From contig CAMLYR010000096.1 in NCBI GenBank assembly GCA_946491915.1, forward strand, positions 1-5,522: a stretch of 5,522 bases of DNA, written 5' to 3'. A program made the translations under genes and the position numbers. Each line of letters opens with the position of its first letter. Position 1 is the first letter of the stretch. This document shows positions 169 to 5,522 of the stretch, one piece after another. This stretch comes from an uncultured Clostridium sp. (GTDB lineage Bacteria > Bacillota_A > Clostridia > TANB77 > CAG-508). The notes under the pieces were generated by a model. It saw only the letters and a program-made list of their open reading frames with translations. It ran no database searches and had not been told where the DNA came from.

Positions 169-209
169 TAAGCAAAACAATAAGGGGTGAAGTTTTACAG
201 TTTTGTTTA
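169..209 (+). repeat. Hairpin copy B enclosing AGGGGTGAAGTTTnnCAG
   Basis: TAAGCAAAAC (169-178) can pair with GTTTTGTTTA (200-209) as a 10-bp stem with one G-T wobble (172/206) when read as the plus strand. The 21-nt loop carries the motif AGGGGTGAAGTTT (183-195), and CAG at 198-200 runs into the right arm. The right arm covers the stop codon of the HTH gene (207-209). There is no T-tract on the minus strand, so it is not a terminator for that gene. It could be a transposon-end structure, a protein-binding site or part of a plus-strand RNA. Confidence 0.5.
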
Positions 210-683
210 CTCCAACAAGTCTTTTATCCACTGAGGTGTTTTCTCGACTTTTTCACCTTTCTTCAATTGCTCTATCAAGTATGCCATCTGTTCATTTTTA
301 TAAAAACGATCTTCAATATAGCAATCATGCGAGCAATATTTCTGATTCTTTGTAGTACTCTTAAAACTTTTGCCACACATTTTGCACTGATGTGCATATT
401 CTTTCTTGGGATGCTGTGCTTCCCATTTTCTTTTGCACGACAGTGAGCAATATTTTCTTTTTCTCCCAGTAGGAGGATGAACCAGAGGGGCACCGCAACG
501 GATACATACGTTACCTTCATATTTTGACGATTTTAAAATATCATCTGCTCTTCCGTCCAGCCCTATTTTTTTGCAATAATTTCTAACAATATCCCTGCTT
601 AGTTCCACCTTATCTGCTATTCTACGATACCCATACCCCAAATGCCGCATTTTCACAATAAGTTCTCTTTGTTCTTCTGTCAT
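207..683 (-). CDS. Helix-turn-helix / double zinc-knuckle protein of mobile elements
   Basis: This 158-residue protein starts at the ATG at 683, with AAGGAG 9 nt upstream. Residues 1-45 form a resolvase- or sigma-region-4-like helix-turn-helix (QRELIVKMRHLGYGYRRIADKV, then LSRDIVRNYCKKIGL). Two zinc knuckles follow: C60-x2-C63-x15-C79-x3-C83 and C100-x2-C103-x13-C117-x3-C121, the second ending in YCSHDCYIEDRF. The C-terminus (about 130-158) is a charged helix. From memory, proteins with this layout are frequent beside serine recombinases in Clostridia and are often labelled 'RNA polymerase sigma-70 subunit' because of the HTH. It lacks regions 2 and 3 of a real sigma factor, so a DNA-binding regulator or recombination accessory role is more likely. 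It has its own promoter candidate and operator-like repeats, and it is less A+T-rich than the two genes upstream. Function beyond DNA binding is inferred. Confidence 0.85.
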   Translation of the reverse strand: MTEEQRELIVKMRHLGYGYRRIADKVELSRDIVRNYCKKIGLDGRADDILKSSKYEGNVCIRCGAPLVHPPTGRKRKYCSLSCKRKWEAQHPKKEYAHQCKMCGKSFKSTTKNQKYCSHDCYIEDRFYKNEQMAYLIEQLKKGEKVEKTPQWIKDLLE

Positions 684-812: not shown

Positions 813-2105
813 TTACACTATCCTCAAATAGAAATTCATCTTATGGATATGTGTATTGTTGTCTATAATTATTATATCTTGTGGTATTCCTGTTATTATG
901 TAATGATCGTCCAATATGACTGAAAAATAGGAATCCGTTTTTGCTTGAATCACTTTATCTTTTGAGCATTCTGGCATATTTTTTTGAATATACGAAAGTG
1001 CCTTGTTGAAATCATGGCATTCTTGATATCTTATCAGCGACATTTTTTTACTGTTAACAAGCGGTAATACTTTACTACACCATTCATCTTTTGCCCAGTC
1101 ATCTAAATGATAAACATCAATCCGTATATTCTCACACTTATCTGCCAAATATTTTAATAATACCTCAAATTCTTCATCAAATAATTTTCTATCAGAAAAA
1201 ATTTCTTTTTCAATTATTATCCCCAATTCATCTCTATTACTTTTATTCTTCTTATATTTCTGCAAATCCCCTTTTAAATCTGGATTTTCTTTTAAATCTA
1301 CTCCTATAAATGGCTTTCTTAACCTATACTTAATAAATGTATTCTTCAACACTTTCTTTTTTCGAATTTGGTCTATTATTTCATTTTTAAACAACAAAAG
1401 CAAAGAATCATTCTTTTTATTAACAGCCATAATATCTATATCTATTCCTTCAGAGCTAACATAGATATATATAGGAATACGCACAAATTTAACATAAGCA
1501 TTTTCTATATTATCAATACTTAGGAGCTCATCAGGTTGACTCTTTGTTTTATCATTATAGAAATCCATTTCATCAAGAAAAATTTTATTTACAGCATCAA
1601 TATTCTCCTTAAATATTTCTACATCCTTTACTTCAAAATCAACATCCAGTTTCTTATCATTGACATAAACCCTATCGACAAATTGATAATTATCGTATTC
1701 AAGAATAACCTTCCGATTGATTGGATCTAAATAAACATTTTTTATTGTATCTTTTTTTCTTTGTATAGTTCTTAGCTCCTGTAATGCCTGTTTTCCTTTT
1801 GCCAATAGACTACATCTATTTGTAGTGCAATAAATAATGTCTTTTACACTTAAATCTGCAAGAGTCACTTCGAGGAGTTTTCTCTCAATTCCCAATATAT
1901 TTACTAATTCATCGATTTCTTGAACCCCTTCGTTTATCAGGCGTAACACTATTTCATCCAGTAAAGGAAGTGAATAAAAAGAACGTTTTGTAATTGACAG
2001 TACAGTCTTTATTATAGGAACATAAATTTCTTCACGTTTTACAAAGATATATCCATCATTCTTTCTTACATTAATATTAGCTAAAGATTCGATTAGTTTA
2101 TCCAT
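813..2105 (-). CDS. Unrecognised partner protein of the kinase-helicase, winged-helix-like N-terminus
   Basis: I do not recognise this 430-residue protein as a named family. Residues about 45-108 look like a winged helix. Helix PLLDEIVLRLINEG is followed by EIDELVNILGI and LLEVTLADLSVKDII, then a wing ending in CSLLAKGKQAL, the usual 'L-x-x-K-G-x-x-A-L' finish of such folds. Residues 120-260 are mixed beta strands and charged helices (DPINRKVILEYDNY; IPIYIYVSSEG). The C-terminal third (295-425) alternates helices and hydrophobic strands, with SYFSVILDDHYIITG at 392-406. That stretch loosely resembles the strand-DD-strand-TG part of phospholipase D-type nuclease domains, but the HxK catalytic pair is absent, so any such domain would be degenerate. 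No signal peptide or transmembrane segment is evident. The start is fixed by AGGAGG and the TAATG overlap with the helicase gene, so both are probably made in concert and may form a complex. The gene is strongly A+T-rich, like the helicase gene. Confidence 0.85.
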   Translation of the reverse strand: MDKLIESLANINVRKNDGYIFVKREEIYVPIIKTVLSITKRSFYSLPLLDEIVLRLINEGVQEIDELVNILGIERKLLEVTLADLSVKDIIYCTTNRCSLLAKGKQALQELRTIQRKKDTIKNVYLDPINRKVILEYDNYQFVDRVYVNDKKLDVDFEVKDVEIFKENIDAVNKIFLDEMDFYNDKTKSQPDELLSIDNIENAYVKFVRIPIYIYVSSEGIDIDIMAVNKKNDSLLLLFKNEIIDQIRKKKVLKNTFIKYRLRKPFIGVDLKENPDLKGDLQKYKKNKSNRDELGIIIEKEIFSDRKLFDEEFEVLLKYLADKCENIRIDVYHLDDWAKDEWCSKVLPLVNSKKMSLIRYQECHDFNKALSYIQKNMPECSKDKVIQAKTDSYFSVILDDHYIITGIPQDIIIIDNNTHIHKMNFYLRIV

Positions 2106-5100
2106 TATATTTCGCCTCCTGGTATCACAAGACATTCTTTTTCATGCTCATAAATGTAATCAATAATCTCAATAAATTTGTTATCTGGGTCATCAAACCT
2201 ATAAAAGAAATCTATGTCTCCGCAAATAATAAGCAGATTTTTTGCTCTTGAAAAGGCTACATTAACTCTTTCCTTTTCTTTCTGAAATCCAATGGAATTC
2301 TTAGTTCTAACCGTGCTATATATAATAACATCATTTTCTCTACCTTGGAATGCATCAAGAGTATTAATATCAATTATTTTTGCTATTTTATCATATCCAC
2401 TATTGTTTACAGACTTCCTTATTAAATCTTTTTGACCTCGATATCCCGTAATAATTCCAATATCTAATTTGGGAAGTGTTCCTTCTTTCTTGAATTCTTC
2501 TAACAGTTTTTTTATTATTGTATTTTCCGCATAATTACAGAAAGAACCTCCCTTAAGCCTACTTTCATCTTTTTTATCCATCATCGAGGTATCAATCCAA
2601 ACAATTGATTTTCCGTTGAATTTTTTTATAGGATGTGTACGGTCTTTATCATCAACTTCTGTTGCAATCTTGCCCTCATAAAAAACTTGACTAATTAAAT
2701 TTCCTATATTTTTTCGCATTCTATACTGCACAGTCAAAATTTGCTTATGTGTATCTGGCAACACATTAAACAGTAAATCGAAAAGCCTATACTTTGGTTC
2801 TTTGGTCAGCTTAGCTATTATTGGAGATAATTCTTGATCTGCATATGCTGGTAATTGGTTTTGATCTCCTACTAATATAATTTTTTTAGACTTAATAATA
2901 GAAACTAATAATTCCGGTGTTGTAGCTTTTGCAGCTTCATCAATAATTACATAATCAAAATCCAACTCTTTAACAAAATCATTTGATAAAAATCCCACGC
3001 ATGTTCCCGCAATAATAGTTGCACTTTTTATCATCTGATAATCAAGTGTCTCTAAATTGCTGCATCTATTAATCCAATCTTTCTGAATATCCTGGATTCT
3101 TTCCCATCGGTCCAGTACTTTTTGCTCCGTAATATTAGCATATAAAGAATTCTGATGTTCGATATATGAATTTGATTTTTCTTTAATATCTGCAAACATC
3201 TTTTTTCGAATTGCATTCATAGTACATGTTTCTTCAACTTTTGGAGAAATATTTTCTGGACGACCAATTCTTATAATATTTAAGTTTCCTTTGTCTACCA
3301 ACCCTTCGATAATATTATCTACCGCTGTATGTGATTGAGATACGATTAAGATTCTTGATGTATCGTCAAATTTATTTATTTGCATTAAAATTTGGAAAAT
3401 AATTTCTTTTATTACTGTCGTTTTTCCTGTACCTGGAGGTCCTTGAATTAGACTGATACTATCTGAATATAGAGCCTTTTTTATTGCTTCCCGTTGAGAT
3501 GAATTTAAAGTATCCCTACTAAATACAATATTTTGTAAAAAAGGTGTATAAGTAGGTTCGTCCAAATTAAGTAATATATCTTTTAAATTTTTCGCCGAAT
3601 AATTATCATCATGTAAAGCCCGAATGGCATATTGCTGCCTTTTATATGCACTTATATTTGCTCTAAAATTTTCCATTATAGGACGTTGTTTTCTAAGTAA
3701 TGGGCGTAGTTTACCCATCTGTGCTTTCTTATCCAAATCAATTATAAATAATGTTTTATCATCGTCATATCTTATCCCATGATAAGTTCCAACATCAAAA
3801 TAAAAGAAGTTGCCCCTGCTATCCACATCTTCAATAATATATTCCATATCATTTTCCAATACGTCAATATCATTATTTTTATATTCTTCTATGGTTAAAA
3901 TCAACTGTTGATCTACTATATTAAATGCAGAATAGACAATCCGTCCTACACGTTCTTTCTCATTTTTCATAGACTCATCAAGTCCATCTTGCCATTTTCC
4001 GAATAATTCTTCAAATAATTCATCTTGTTTTTGTAATGTGCTTTTGGTGTTAACATTATTTCTAAATTGTATAATTAGCTTTTGATTATCGTTATTTATC
4101 GTTCTGTCATTATAATTTCTTCTTCCACTATCTATAAATTTAACTATACCTTGAACAGTAAAACCTCTCTTTTGATTACTAATCCTCCGATCAACCGATA
4201 CAGGAAAAATTTTACTTACCACAAATAACTCATCTTTGTCATTATAAATACATTCAACCGCTATTTTCTTTCCGGAAAAAATATAACAATTTTTAAAGCT
4301 ATTATAAAAAGCAGAACATTCTTTAAACTGGTTTTTTAAAAATGAATTTGTGAAGATAGACATATTAGCATTCGATTCAATTAAAGAGATACTCTTTATA
4401 TATCTCAATTTATCGGCGTCAATGCTACATAAATATATATCTCTTTTTGGACTATTATCTCCTATAATCTCTTCAAAAGCATCGATAACTGCCCCAAGTT
4501 CTTGAAATCTATTTTCTGGTTCTTCTGCAACCATCTTAGCAATTAAATGCTCTAAATTTTCAGGTACTTCTAAATTACCCAGTGTTTTGCAGATCATTTC
4601 TGTACCATTTGGCAATATACCATATAGAATATAGAAAATTACTGCTCCTAACGAATAAATATCACTTGCTTCTGTTGTGCTATTACCTTTAACTACTTCT
4701 GGAGCCGAAAAATTCGGAGAATAGAACGGCAAAGTTGTCTCTTGCTCTACTATGGATTTTATCTTACTTGTTCCAAAATCAATAATCTTCACTTCCCCCG
4801 TCTCAGTATTATATATAATATTAGACGGTTTAATATCACGGTGCAGAACATTATTATTATGTGCTTCTTCGATAGCTTTCAAAATTTTTAAACAGAGTTC
4901 ATACTTTTCTATCTGTGACAAACTGCTTAAATCTAAATCTTCAAGATTCACTCCATCAACATAATCTAGTAGAATCAGCCCCCAGTCACTTTTACCCCTA
5001 AATTCGGCATTGAGTAAATAATCTCTGATTTTCACAATACTATCGCAAGAATTTAATGTCCTAAGCGCCTCAACTTCTCTCTTAAAAATTAATTTTTGAA

Positions 5101-5239
5101 ATCTATTATTTAGTGAGCCAATTAATTTTAAAGCGTAAACTTTATCACAAGTCTTTTTATTTTTTTCTTTCACTTTCAAAATAATAGTCTCATTAGTCCT
5201 AGACGTATGAATTACTTCTAATACCTCATAATTATCCAT
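2105..5239 (-). CDS. Ser/Thr protein kinase - SF1 (DNA2/Upf1-like) helicase fusion
   Basis: This 1044-residue protein starts at the ATG at 5239. Residues 4-260 form a Hanks-type kinase: YALK with ATP-anchoring K38, probable helix-C E55, HRDIKPSN with catalytic D135, DFG at 154-156, APE at 179-181, DIYSLG at 193-198 and PENRF with R244. The glycine-rich loop is missing: HTSRTNET occupies the expected position. Residues 261-570 match no domain I can name. Residues 577-1010 carry a full superfamily 1 helicase: LNSSQREAI Q-motif, GPPGTGKTT Walker A (600-608), SHTAVDN motif Ia (636-642), DEAA Walker B (767-770), GDQNQLP (791-797), VQYRM (837-841), TLDAFQGRE (960-968) and RVNVAFSRAK (991-1000). Residues about 680-725, between motifs Ia and II, are charged and helical. 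No signal peptide or membrane segment is seen, so it is probably cytoplasmic. It is expected to phosphorylate protein and to translocate on or remodel DNA or RNA. The stop codon overlaps the partner gene's start. Domain calls are firm; the defence role is inferred. Confidence 0.93.
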   Translation of the reverse strand: MDNYEVLEVIHTSRTNETIILKVKEKNKKTCDKVYALKLIGSLNNRFQKLIFKREVEALRTLNSCDSIVKIRDYLLNAEFRGKSDWGLILLDYVDGVNLEDLDLSSLSQIEKYELCLKILKAIEEAHNNNVLHRDIKPSNIIYNTETGEVKIIDFGTSKIKSIVEQETTLPFYSPNFSAPEVVKGNSTTEASDIYSLGAVIFYILYGILPNGTEMICKTLGNLEVPENLEHLIAKMVAEEPENRFQELGAVIDAFEEIIGDNSPKRDIYLCSIDADKLRYIKSISLIESNANMSIFTNSFLKNQFKECSAFYNSFKNCYIFSGKKIAVECIYNDKDELFVVSKIFPVSVDRRISNQKRGFTVQGIVKFIDSGRRNYNDRTINNDNQKLIIQFRNNVNTKSTLQKQDELFEELFGKWQDGLDESMKNEKERVGRIVYSAFNIVDQQLILTIEEYKNNDIDVLENDMEYIIEDVDSRGNFFYFDVGTYHGIRYDDDKTLFIIDLDKKAQMGKLRPLLRKQRPIMENFRANISAYKRQQYAIRALHDDNYSAKNLKDILLNLDEPTYTPFLQNIVFSRDTLNSSQREAIKKALYSDSISLIQGPPGTGKTTVIKEIIFQILMQINKFDDTSRILIVSQSHTAVDNIIEGLVDKGNLNIIRIGRPENISPKVEETCTMNAIRKKMFADIKEKSNSYIEHQNSLYANITEQKVLDRWERIQDIQKDWINRCSNLETLDYQMIKSATIIAGTCVGFLSNDFVKELDFDYVIIDEAAKATTPELLVSIIKSKKIILVGDQNQLPAYADQELSPIIAKLTKEPKYRLFDLLFNVLPDTHKQILTVQYRMRKNIGNLISQVFYEGKIATEVDDKDRTHPIKKFNGKSIVWIDTSMMDKKDESRLKGGSFCNYAENTIIKKLLEEFKKEGTLPKLDIGIITGYRGQKDLIRKSVNNSGYDKIAKIIDINTLDAFQGRENDVIIYSTVRTKNSIGFQKEKERVNVAFSRAKNLLIICGDIDFFYRFDDPDNKFIEIIDYIYEHEKECLVIPGGEI
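2115..2120 (-). promoter_or_regulatory. Internal ribosome binding site and TAATG coupling junction
   Basis: AGGAGG sits inside the last glycine codons of the kinase-helicase (encoding part of IPGGEI), 9 nt before the ATG at 2105. The helicase stop TAA (2105-2107) and this ATG share one base, forming TAATG. This is a classical arrangement for translational coupling by termination-reinitiation. It decides the partner's start: an in-frame ATG 30 bp upstream at 2135 has no comparable site. Confidence 0.85.
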
Positions 5240-5251
5240 ATCACTTTGCAA

Positions 5252-5257
5252 CTCCTT
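5252..5257 (-). promoter_or_regulatory. Ribosome binding site that decides the kinase-helicase start
   Basis: AAGGAG lies 12 nt upstream of the ATG at 5239. It directly abuts an in-frame TTG at 5251 with zero spacing, which makes that TTG an implausible start. A GTG at 5244 has better spacing but is out of frame. The ATG at 5239 is therefore chosen, although its spacing is somewhat long. Confidence 0.65.
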
Positions 5258-5274
5258 CTTTGCGTAGTAATTTT

Positions 5275-5303
5275 ATTTTATCATATTCCTGCACCCTTTA
5301 CTA
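5275..5303 (-). promoter_or_regulatory. Weak promoter candidate for the kinase-helicase operon
   Basis: Between the terminator and the kinase-helicase ribosome binding site the minus strand holds an A+T-rich TATGATAAAAT block. The best sigma-A reading is -10 TAAAAT (5275-5280, 5 of 6 matches) with a 17-bp spacer to TAGTAA (5298-5303, 3 of 6 matches to TTGACA). A promoter is expected here because the upstream gene is terminated, but the -35 box is poor and the exact boxes are uncertain. No operator-like palindrome is apparent. Confidence 0.35.
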
Positions 5304-5320
5304 TCCGGAAAAAGCGCAAG

Positions 5321-5356
5321 AAAAAAGCCGATCAGGACTCTTACATCCCAACCGGC
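5321..5356 (-). terminator. Rho-independent terminator of the recombinase gene
   Basis: On the minus strand a 12-bp stem (GCCGGTTGGGAT paired with GTCCTGATCGGC, including four G-T wobbles) encloses a 6-base loop and is followed at once by six T residues. It begins 8 bp after the recombinase stop codon. This is a standard intrinsic terminator, and it implies that the downstream kinase-helicase gene needs its own promoter. Confidence 0.85.
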
Positions 5357-5364
5357 CTCTTTTC

Positions 5365-5522
5365 TTACGCTTCTTCACTTCTACACTCAATCTCCGATCC
5401 GTCCAGAAACACCACCAGCAATGTCCCATCCTCAAACACCTTGATATGGTCCAGCGTTTTCAGCATGAAATCCGTGTCCATCTCTTTCAGTGGCTTCGCA
5501 TCTTTTGTATATTCCACAAATT
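5365..5522 (-). CDS. Serine recombinase, C-terminal fragment (5' end outside window)
   Basis: This is an open frame of 51 codons ending in TAA and running off the right edge of the window, so only the C-terminus is visible. The peptide contains KEMDTDFMLKTLDHIKVFEDG followed by a short beta-rich stretch (TLLVVFLDGSEIE). Large serine recombinases and resolvases of Clostridia typically end in this way: a helix, then 'I.V.EDG...V.F.DG.E', after the recombinase and zinc-ribbon domains. Those catalytic domains lie outside the window, so the assignment rests on this tail pattern alone. Such enzymes cut and rejoin DNA at attachment sites using a serine nucleophile, and they excise or integrate mobile elements. 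A strong terminator follows the stop by 8 bp, which separates it transcriptionally from the kinase-helicase gene. Its G+C (about 44%) is higher than that of the next two genes. An unrelated protein with a similar tail cannot be excluded. Confidence 0.6.
   Translation of the reverse strand, partial: FVEYTKDAKPLKEMDTDFMLKTLDHIKVFEDGTLLVVFLDGSEIECRSEEA

Follow-up and report, generated by a model that had tools for sequence, protein, structure and literature searches.

The window analyzed here, a 5,522-nucleotide stretch of an uncultured Clostridium sp. (GCA_946491915.1, contig CAMLYR010000096.1), carries on its minus strand two overlapping genes, a mkoA homolog (5239-2105) followed by a mkoB homolog (2105-813), which together are best read as a nuclease-less variant related to the Mokosh type I defense system. 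The features of the pair are as follows, where SF1 denotes helicase superfamily 1, PLD phospholipase D, aa amino acids and dN/dS the ratio of nonsynonymous to synonymous substitution rates:

2105..5239, minus strand: mkoA homolog, 1044 aa, with Hanks kinase, linker and SF1 helicase (PADLOC, Pfam)
4460..5239, minus strand: kinase region, residues 1-260, with the HRD aspartate Asp135 at 4835-4837 (Pfam and aligned relatives)
3665..4459, minus strand: linker, residues 261-525, without a Pfam family (Pfam; dN/dS 0.09 against the related locus L232)
2216..3508, minus strand: SF1 helicase core, residues 578-1008, with Walker A GPPGTGKT at 3419-3442 (Pfam AAA_11 and AAA_12; invariant motifs)
2103..2107, minus strand: TAATG, the one-base stop-start overlap of mkoA and mkoB (sequence)
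813..2105, minus strand: mkoB homolog, 430 aa (PADLOC MkoB model PDLC03923)
1773..1976, minus strand: predicted MarR-like winged helix, MkoB residues 44-111
816..1322, minus strand: predicted PLD-like C-terminal domain of MkoB, residues 262-430, presumed inactive
906..932, minus strand: SYFSVILDD, the expected place of the HxKx4D motif (position set by profile alignment and by the order of fold elements)

A sequence-only reading of this DNA had described a Hanks kinase and an SF1 helicase in one polypeptide, joined by the TAATG overlap to a second gene, and both the sequence and Pfam bear this out; its coordinates, its motif residues (D135, K606), the high A+T content and the recombinase end on the flank were likewise correct. 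Because the genes overlap, they are probably translationally coupled. PADLOC identifies the first gene as MkoA (PDLC03920, 1.5e-178, full length) and the second as MkoB (PDLC03923, 6.7e-25), the latter match covering only residues 25-260 of a 440-aa form, its N-terminal half. MkoA also matches the Mokosh type II helicase model PDLC03924 (3.8e-36) and, among the best 25 of 34 Pfam families for the window, Pkinase (1.9e-33), AAA_11 and AAA_12. In the papers cited here, Mokosh type I is described as a helicase and a PLD nuclease in separate genes plus a Ser/Thr kinase domain, with a COG1112-like RNA helicase in MkoA (PMC11672841); a table lists type I with NERD and a PLD-like domain (PMC10952713); and type II (MkoC) is a single gene with a C-terminal PLD nuclease (PMC11672841; PMC10740426). 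The window pair possesses the MkoA helicase (PDLC03920, AAA_11/AAA_12), the Ser/Thr kinase domain and a separate, adjacent mkoB, but lacks a PLD nuclease with the HxKx4D (HKD) motif in MkoB; it also shows, among those 25 Pfam families, no NERD domain as in the NERD branch and, consisting of two genes, does not have the single-gene form of type II. Its gene order is that of other Mokosh pairs, and hhalign of HKD-bearing MkoB against the clade of the window returned a probability of 96.5 over 110 columns. The homology to Mokosh type I is firm and, as the HKD motif is missing from MkoB, the pair is treated as a type I-related variant rather than a standard member, and not as something categorically new. 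The sequence-only reading had taken the module for an undescribed one corresponding to no named system, a claim that falls with the match to a published system. A wholly undescribed defense system would agree with the want of a Pfam family in the partner and of DNA matches in the phage and plasmid collections, but it is refuted at the level of homology by the PADLOC matches (full-length for MkoA, N-terminal for MkoB), the hhalign result and the Mokosh-like gene order, and is considered highly improbable. No description of a nuclease-less Mokosh was found in the open-access literature that was searched, a scope that takes in few of the subscription papers.

MkoA-MkoB pairs were gathered from genome collections, and duplicate loci holding the same gene (L197/L235, L199/L234, L168/L236, L169/L237, L231/L238, L198/L230/L001, L228/L232, L229/L233) were counted once. 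Ten pairs bear HKD in MkoB (L004, L014, L016, L017, L021, L245, L247, L248, L257, L258). Six have a long MkoA (1501-1654 aa), with NERD in five of the six and an MkoB without HxKx4D in all; the long pair without a NERD match, L241, has an N-terminus about 140 aa shorter than that of its near-twin L242. Neither HKD nor NERD is found in a further ten pairs, namely the window, L232, L233, L001, L234, L235, L236, L237, L238 and L002. Kept outside this tally were pairs with other or partial helicases (L246, L249, L250, L251, L255 and the second pair in L004), L252, whose MkoB lies beyond the contig end, L260, with a 272-aa partner without HKD, and the kinase-less pairs L253, L254, L256, L039 and L040. 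These last, from Clostridia (the first three) and Thermogemmatispora, have MkoA-like helicases without a kinase match that cluster together in the helicase tree, and winged-helix-type partners of about 380-420 aa without HxKx4D. In that tree (30 rows, quick method, with L257 and L258 left out), a branch with SH-aLRT support of 99 separates the ten nuclease-less pairs from the rest, another of equal support (99) sets the six long ones apart, and the PLD pairs require three changes. At all ten loci of the nuclease-less clade mkoB lies no more than about 120 bases after mkoA, a constant co-occurrence that supports the sequence-only reading; L236 and L237 were first detected via MkoB rather than MkoA. 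The pair is rare: in the order to which the Acetatifactor genome G001 belongs, such an MkoA was detected (1e-100) in 4 of 392 genomes.

The window pair shares features with each described branch. Like the PLD branch of type I (PDLC03920 and PDLC03922, e.g., Kribbella L014 and Pseudactinotalea L021), it has a kinase-helicase MkoA directly before a winged-helix MkoB, with homology in the N-terminal part of MkoB; unlike that branch, whose MkoB has HxKx4D and a PLDc_2 match, its MkoB is without the motif and resembles PLD in predicted fold only. It resembles the long-MkoA branch (PDLC03921 and PDLC03923, e.g., Caballeronia L052) in having two genes, a helicase with a kinase-like domain, and an MkoB without HxKx4D, yet that branch has an N-terminal NERD in five of six pairs and HGD without DFG, whereas the window has a canonical kinase and no NERD. 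The type II helicase is related to the window MkoA (PDLC03924, 3.8e-36), although type II is one gene with a C-terminal PLD nuclease and the window has two.

For MkoB, structural models point to a MarR-like winged helix and to a C-terminal domain that may fold like PLD. Ranks 1-39 of a Foldseek search with the predicted C-terminal domain all belonged to the PLD superfamily, at modest scores, and FAM83 proteins were among its structural neighbors; the rows that VIA-align listed for the full-length model were all winged-helix ones, and the missing PLD rows carry no weight there. The loss of PLD catalysis is well supported. HxKx4D occurs in the C-terminal domain of none of the 154 relatives listed, some of them partial (133 are at least 395 aa), and the columns corresponding to the motif contain no His and, at one column, a Lys in 2 of 102; in 9 of the 102, the C-terminal part has HxK but not the remainder of the motif. 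HxKx4D does match in 29 of the 154 MkoB, but always within residues 82-156 and never in the C-terminal domain; these matches were taken as chance. Truncation or frame damage was rejected as the cause of the missing motif, since the 133 listed relatives of at least 395 aa are also without it and the domain is under purifying selection. Pfam detected no PLD family in MkoB at any of the ten clade loci, and all five HKD-bearing MkoB scanned match PLDc_2. A nuclease function for the partner, as the sequence-only reading had entertained, is not supported, since the PLD-like domain is without the catalytic His and Lys. The 639-aa MkoB of the HKD-bearing L245 (7758-9677) has two HxKx4D motifs, and some MkoB therefore carry both halves of the PLD nuclease.

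The kinase and helicase residues, by comparison, are intact, as had been read from the window. Of 116 aligned rows (115 listed relatives, taken irrespective of partner, plus the window; two rows gapped), 114-115 have K38, E55, H133-D135, N140 and D154-G156, with gaps in the others, and all five core kinase columns are kept in 114 of the 114 rows that carry them. The VAIK Lys, alpha-C Glu, HRD, Asn and DFG are found in all ten clade pairs (DYG in L237), and the SF1 motifs are invariant. Only 3 of the 16 pairs with HKD or a long MkoA have the canonical kinase set. These are the HKD-bearing L014, L021 and L248 (3/10); four others of the ten (L016, L017, L257, L258) have an HGD-type motif and may be active, and the catalytic Asp is missing in the remaining three (L004, L245, L247). 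None of the six long pairs is canonical (HGD, no DFG glycine, Kdo/APH-type-like motifs), and their kinases may be active too. In one MkoA with a NERD match, that of L244 (2149-6915), the helicase is preceded by a kinase-like stretch at about 332-434 and a second, separate one at about 608-658. Between the window and L232, dN/dS was 0.06 for the kinase, 0.09 for the linker, 0.04 for the helicase and, across the three parts of MkoB, 0.05, 0.08 and 0.14, at a dS of 0.8-1.3, which is near saturation. These ratios indicate that all parts of both genes are under purifying selection, with the C-terminal domain of MkoB evolving fastest, without decay.

Taken together, these observations favor, with moderate confidence, a mobile anti-phage system of two genes that descends from Mokosh type I and no longer has a nuclease, and in which the kinase would be the executor. 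A defense role, proposed in the sequence-only reading, is supported by the homology to the MkoA and MkoB models. The helicase and the winged helix would recognize foreign or abnormal nucleic acid, while the dead PLD domain of MkoB would hold nucleic acid or dock the kinase, MkoB being best read as a sensor or adaptor. Recognition would then switch on the MkoA kinase, whose phosphorylation of host or phage proteins, rather than any cutting of nucleic acid, might stop the infection. The conserved residues fit the kinase as the likely executor of the response, a reading made stronger by the absence of a detected nuclease from the clade. A kinase-docking role for MkoB is a guess by analogy to FAM83, whose pseudo-PLD domain has no catalysis and binds CK1 kinases (PMC6008594). 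The FAM83 DUF1669 domain, a near structural neighbor, likewise pairs a PLD-like fold without catalysis with a Ser/Thr kinase, but FAM83 proteins are vertebrate proteins, and the comparison is one of analogy and not of membership. FAM83 is not known to have a link to a winged helix or a helicase.

One point limits the case for a kinase executor. The nuclease-less pairs form a single clade, so that about one independent event lies behind the association between the kinase and nuclease loss. A rival reading is a Mokosh that still cuts nucleic acid, through an unrecognized active site, be it in the MkoA linker or the C-terminal domain of MkoB, or through a recruited host nuclease, with a kinase that only regulates. 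No Pfam family covers the linker (residues 261-525), which could therefore hold a new nuclease, MkoB R306 and E312 are invariant in 68 aligned rows, and the nuclease-bearing branches of Mokosh also have kinase domains, some of them canonical. Yet Pfam found neither NERD nor any other nuclease family in MkoA, nor a nuclease family in MkoB, at the ten clade loci (for the window, among the best 25 of 34 families), the PLD His and Lys are missing from the MkoB C-terminal domain, and no common neighbor gene could provide a nuclease; retained cutting is accordingly regarded as rather unlikely. A common third gene was rejected, as the open reading frames (ORFs) after mkoB differ among L232, L233, L235, L236, L237, L238 and L239; the sequences of L234 and L001 end soon after mkoB.

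Returning to the kinase as executor, a broader proposal is that of an effector-class switch, in which the Clostridia clade exchanged nucleic-acid cutting for protein phosphorylation and the dead PLD domain came to anchor the kinase or to sense nucleic acid, independently of FAM83/CK1. This is put forward tentatively, as a possibility on the doubtful side. If true, effectors would be interchangeable on one chassis of helicase, kinase and winged helix, whether the PLD domain of MkoB, the NERD domain of MkoA or the kinase. The literature defines Mokosh via its nuclease, and no explanation for the kinase was found in the open-access part searched. A natural clade without a recognized nuclease but with a fully conserved kinase makes the role of the Mokosh kinase directly testable: should such a pair still protect, the kinase can be an effector. 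Annotation tools meanwhile label such loci Mokosh although the quoted effector feature is missing.

The surroundings of the pair bear on its mobility. Window and L232 match at the DNA level (83%) from 826 to 5495; the matching stretch starts just inside mkoB and reaches the recombinase gene, and nothing past mkoB matches. The similarity ends about 13 bases short of the mkoB end and continues on the other side into the recombinase gene; because it stops at the one and runs on into the other, the mkoB end may mark an insertion junction. Mobile or defense genes lie near the pair in several loci, in line with the sequence-only reading. Two serine recombinase ORFs lie upstream of the pair in L232 and two beside it in L239 (Flavonifractor, the L002 locus), an integrase-family gene lies upstream in L236 and a relaxase downstream in L233. 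These genes, with the winged helix of MkoB, would fit a regulatory or maintenance module of a mobile element, in which kinase, helicase and MarR-like winged helix steer recombination or transfer rather than anti-phage defense. But the recombination partners vary between loci, as for cargo, a BsuBI/PstI-type restriction enzyme and methyltransferase stand directly upstream of mkoA in L238 (6845-9419) and a BrxL gene about 3.5 kb upstream of the pair in L235, and both genes are homologous to a defense system, which leaves a mobile-element module improbable. The phage collection gave no DNA or protein match, and the plasmid collection no DNA match and, for protein, a single 90-aa Arthrobacter match. 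A viral_contigs scan with the MkoB alignment returned no relative, and one with the MkoA alignment returned 78 loci, matched through kinase or helicase similarity. A natural MkoA-MkoB fusion suggested by P0070 was set aside, its sequence reading as an internal deletion or misassembly.

Three further features, all on the minus strand, flank the pair:

5252..5257, minus strand: AAGGAG, ribosome-binding site of mkoA (read by eye)
5365..5522, minus strand: C-terminal end of a serine recombinase gene truncated by the edge of the window (42 aa with 86% identity to L232:7886-8011)
207..683, minus strand: small helix-turn-helix/zinc-like ORF, probably outside the system (weak Pfam matches only; no PADLOC match)

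The L232:7886-8011 ORF matched by the recombinase end is a Resolvase/Recombinase. Above mkoA, a scan for promoters and terminators gave one promoter-like site against 1.2 expected and no terminator. The 207-683 ORF has relatives at 27-32% identity in the IMG/VR loci L140, L081 and L088, and may therefore belong to a mobile element.
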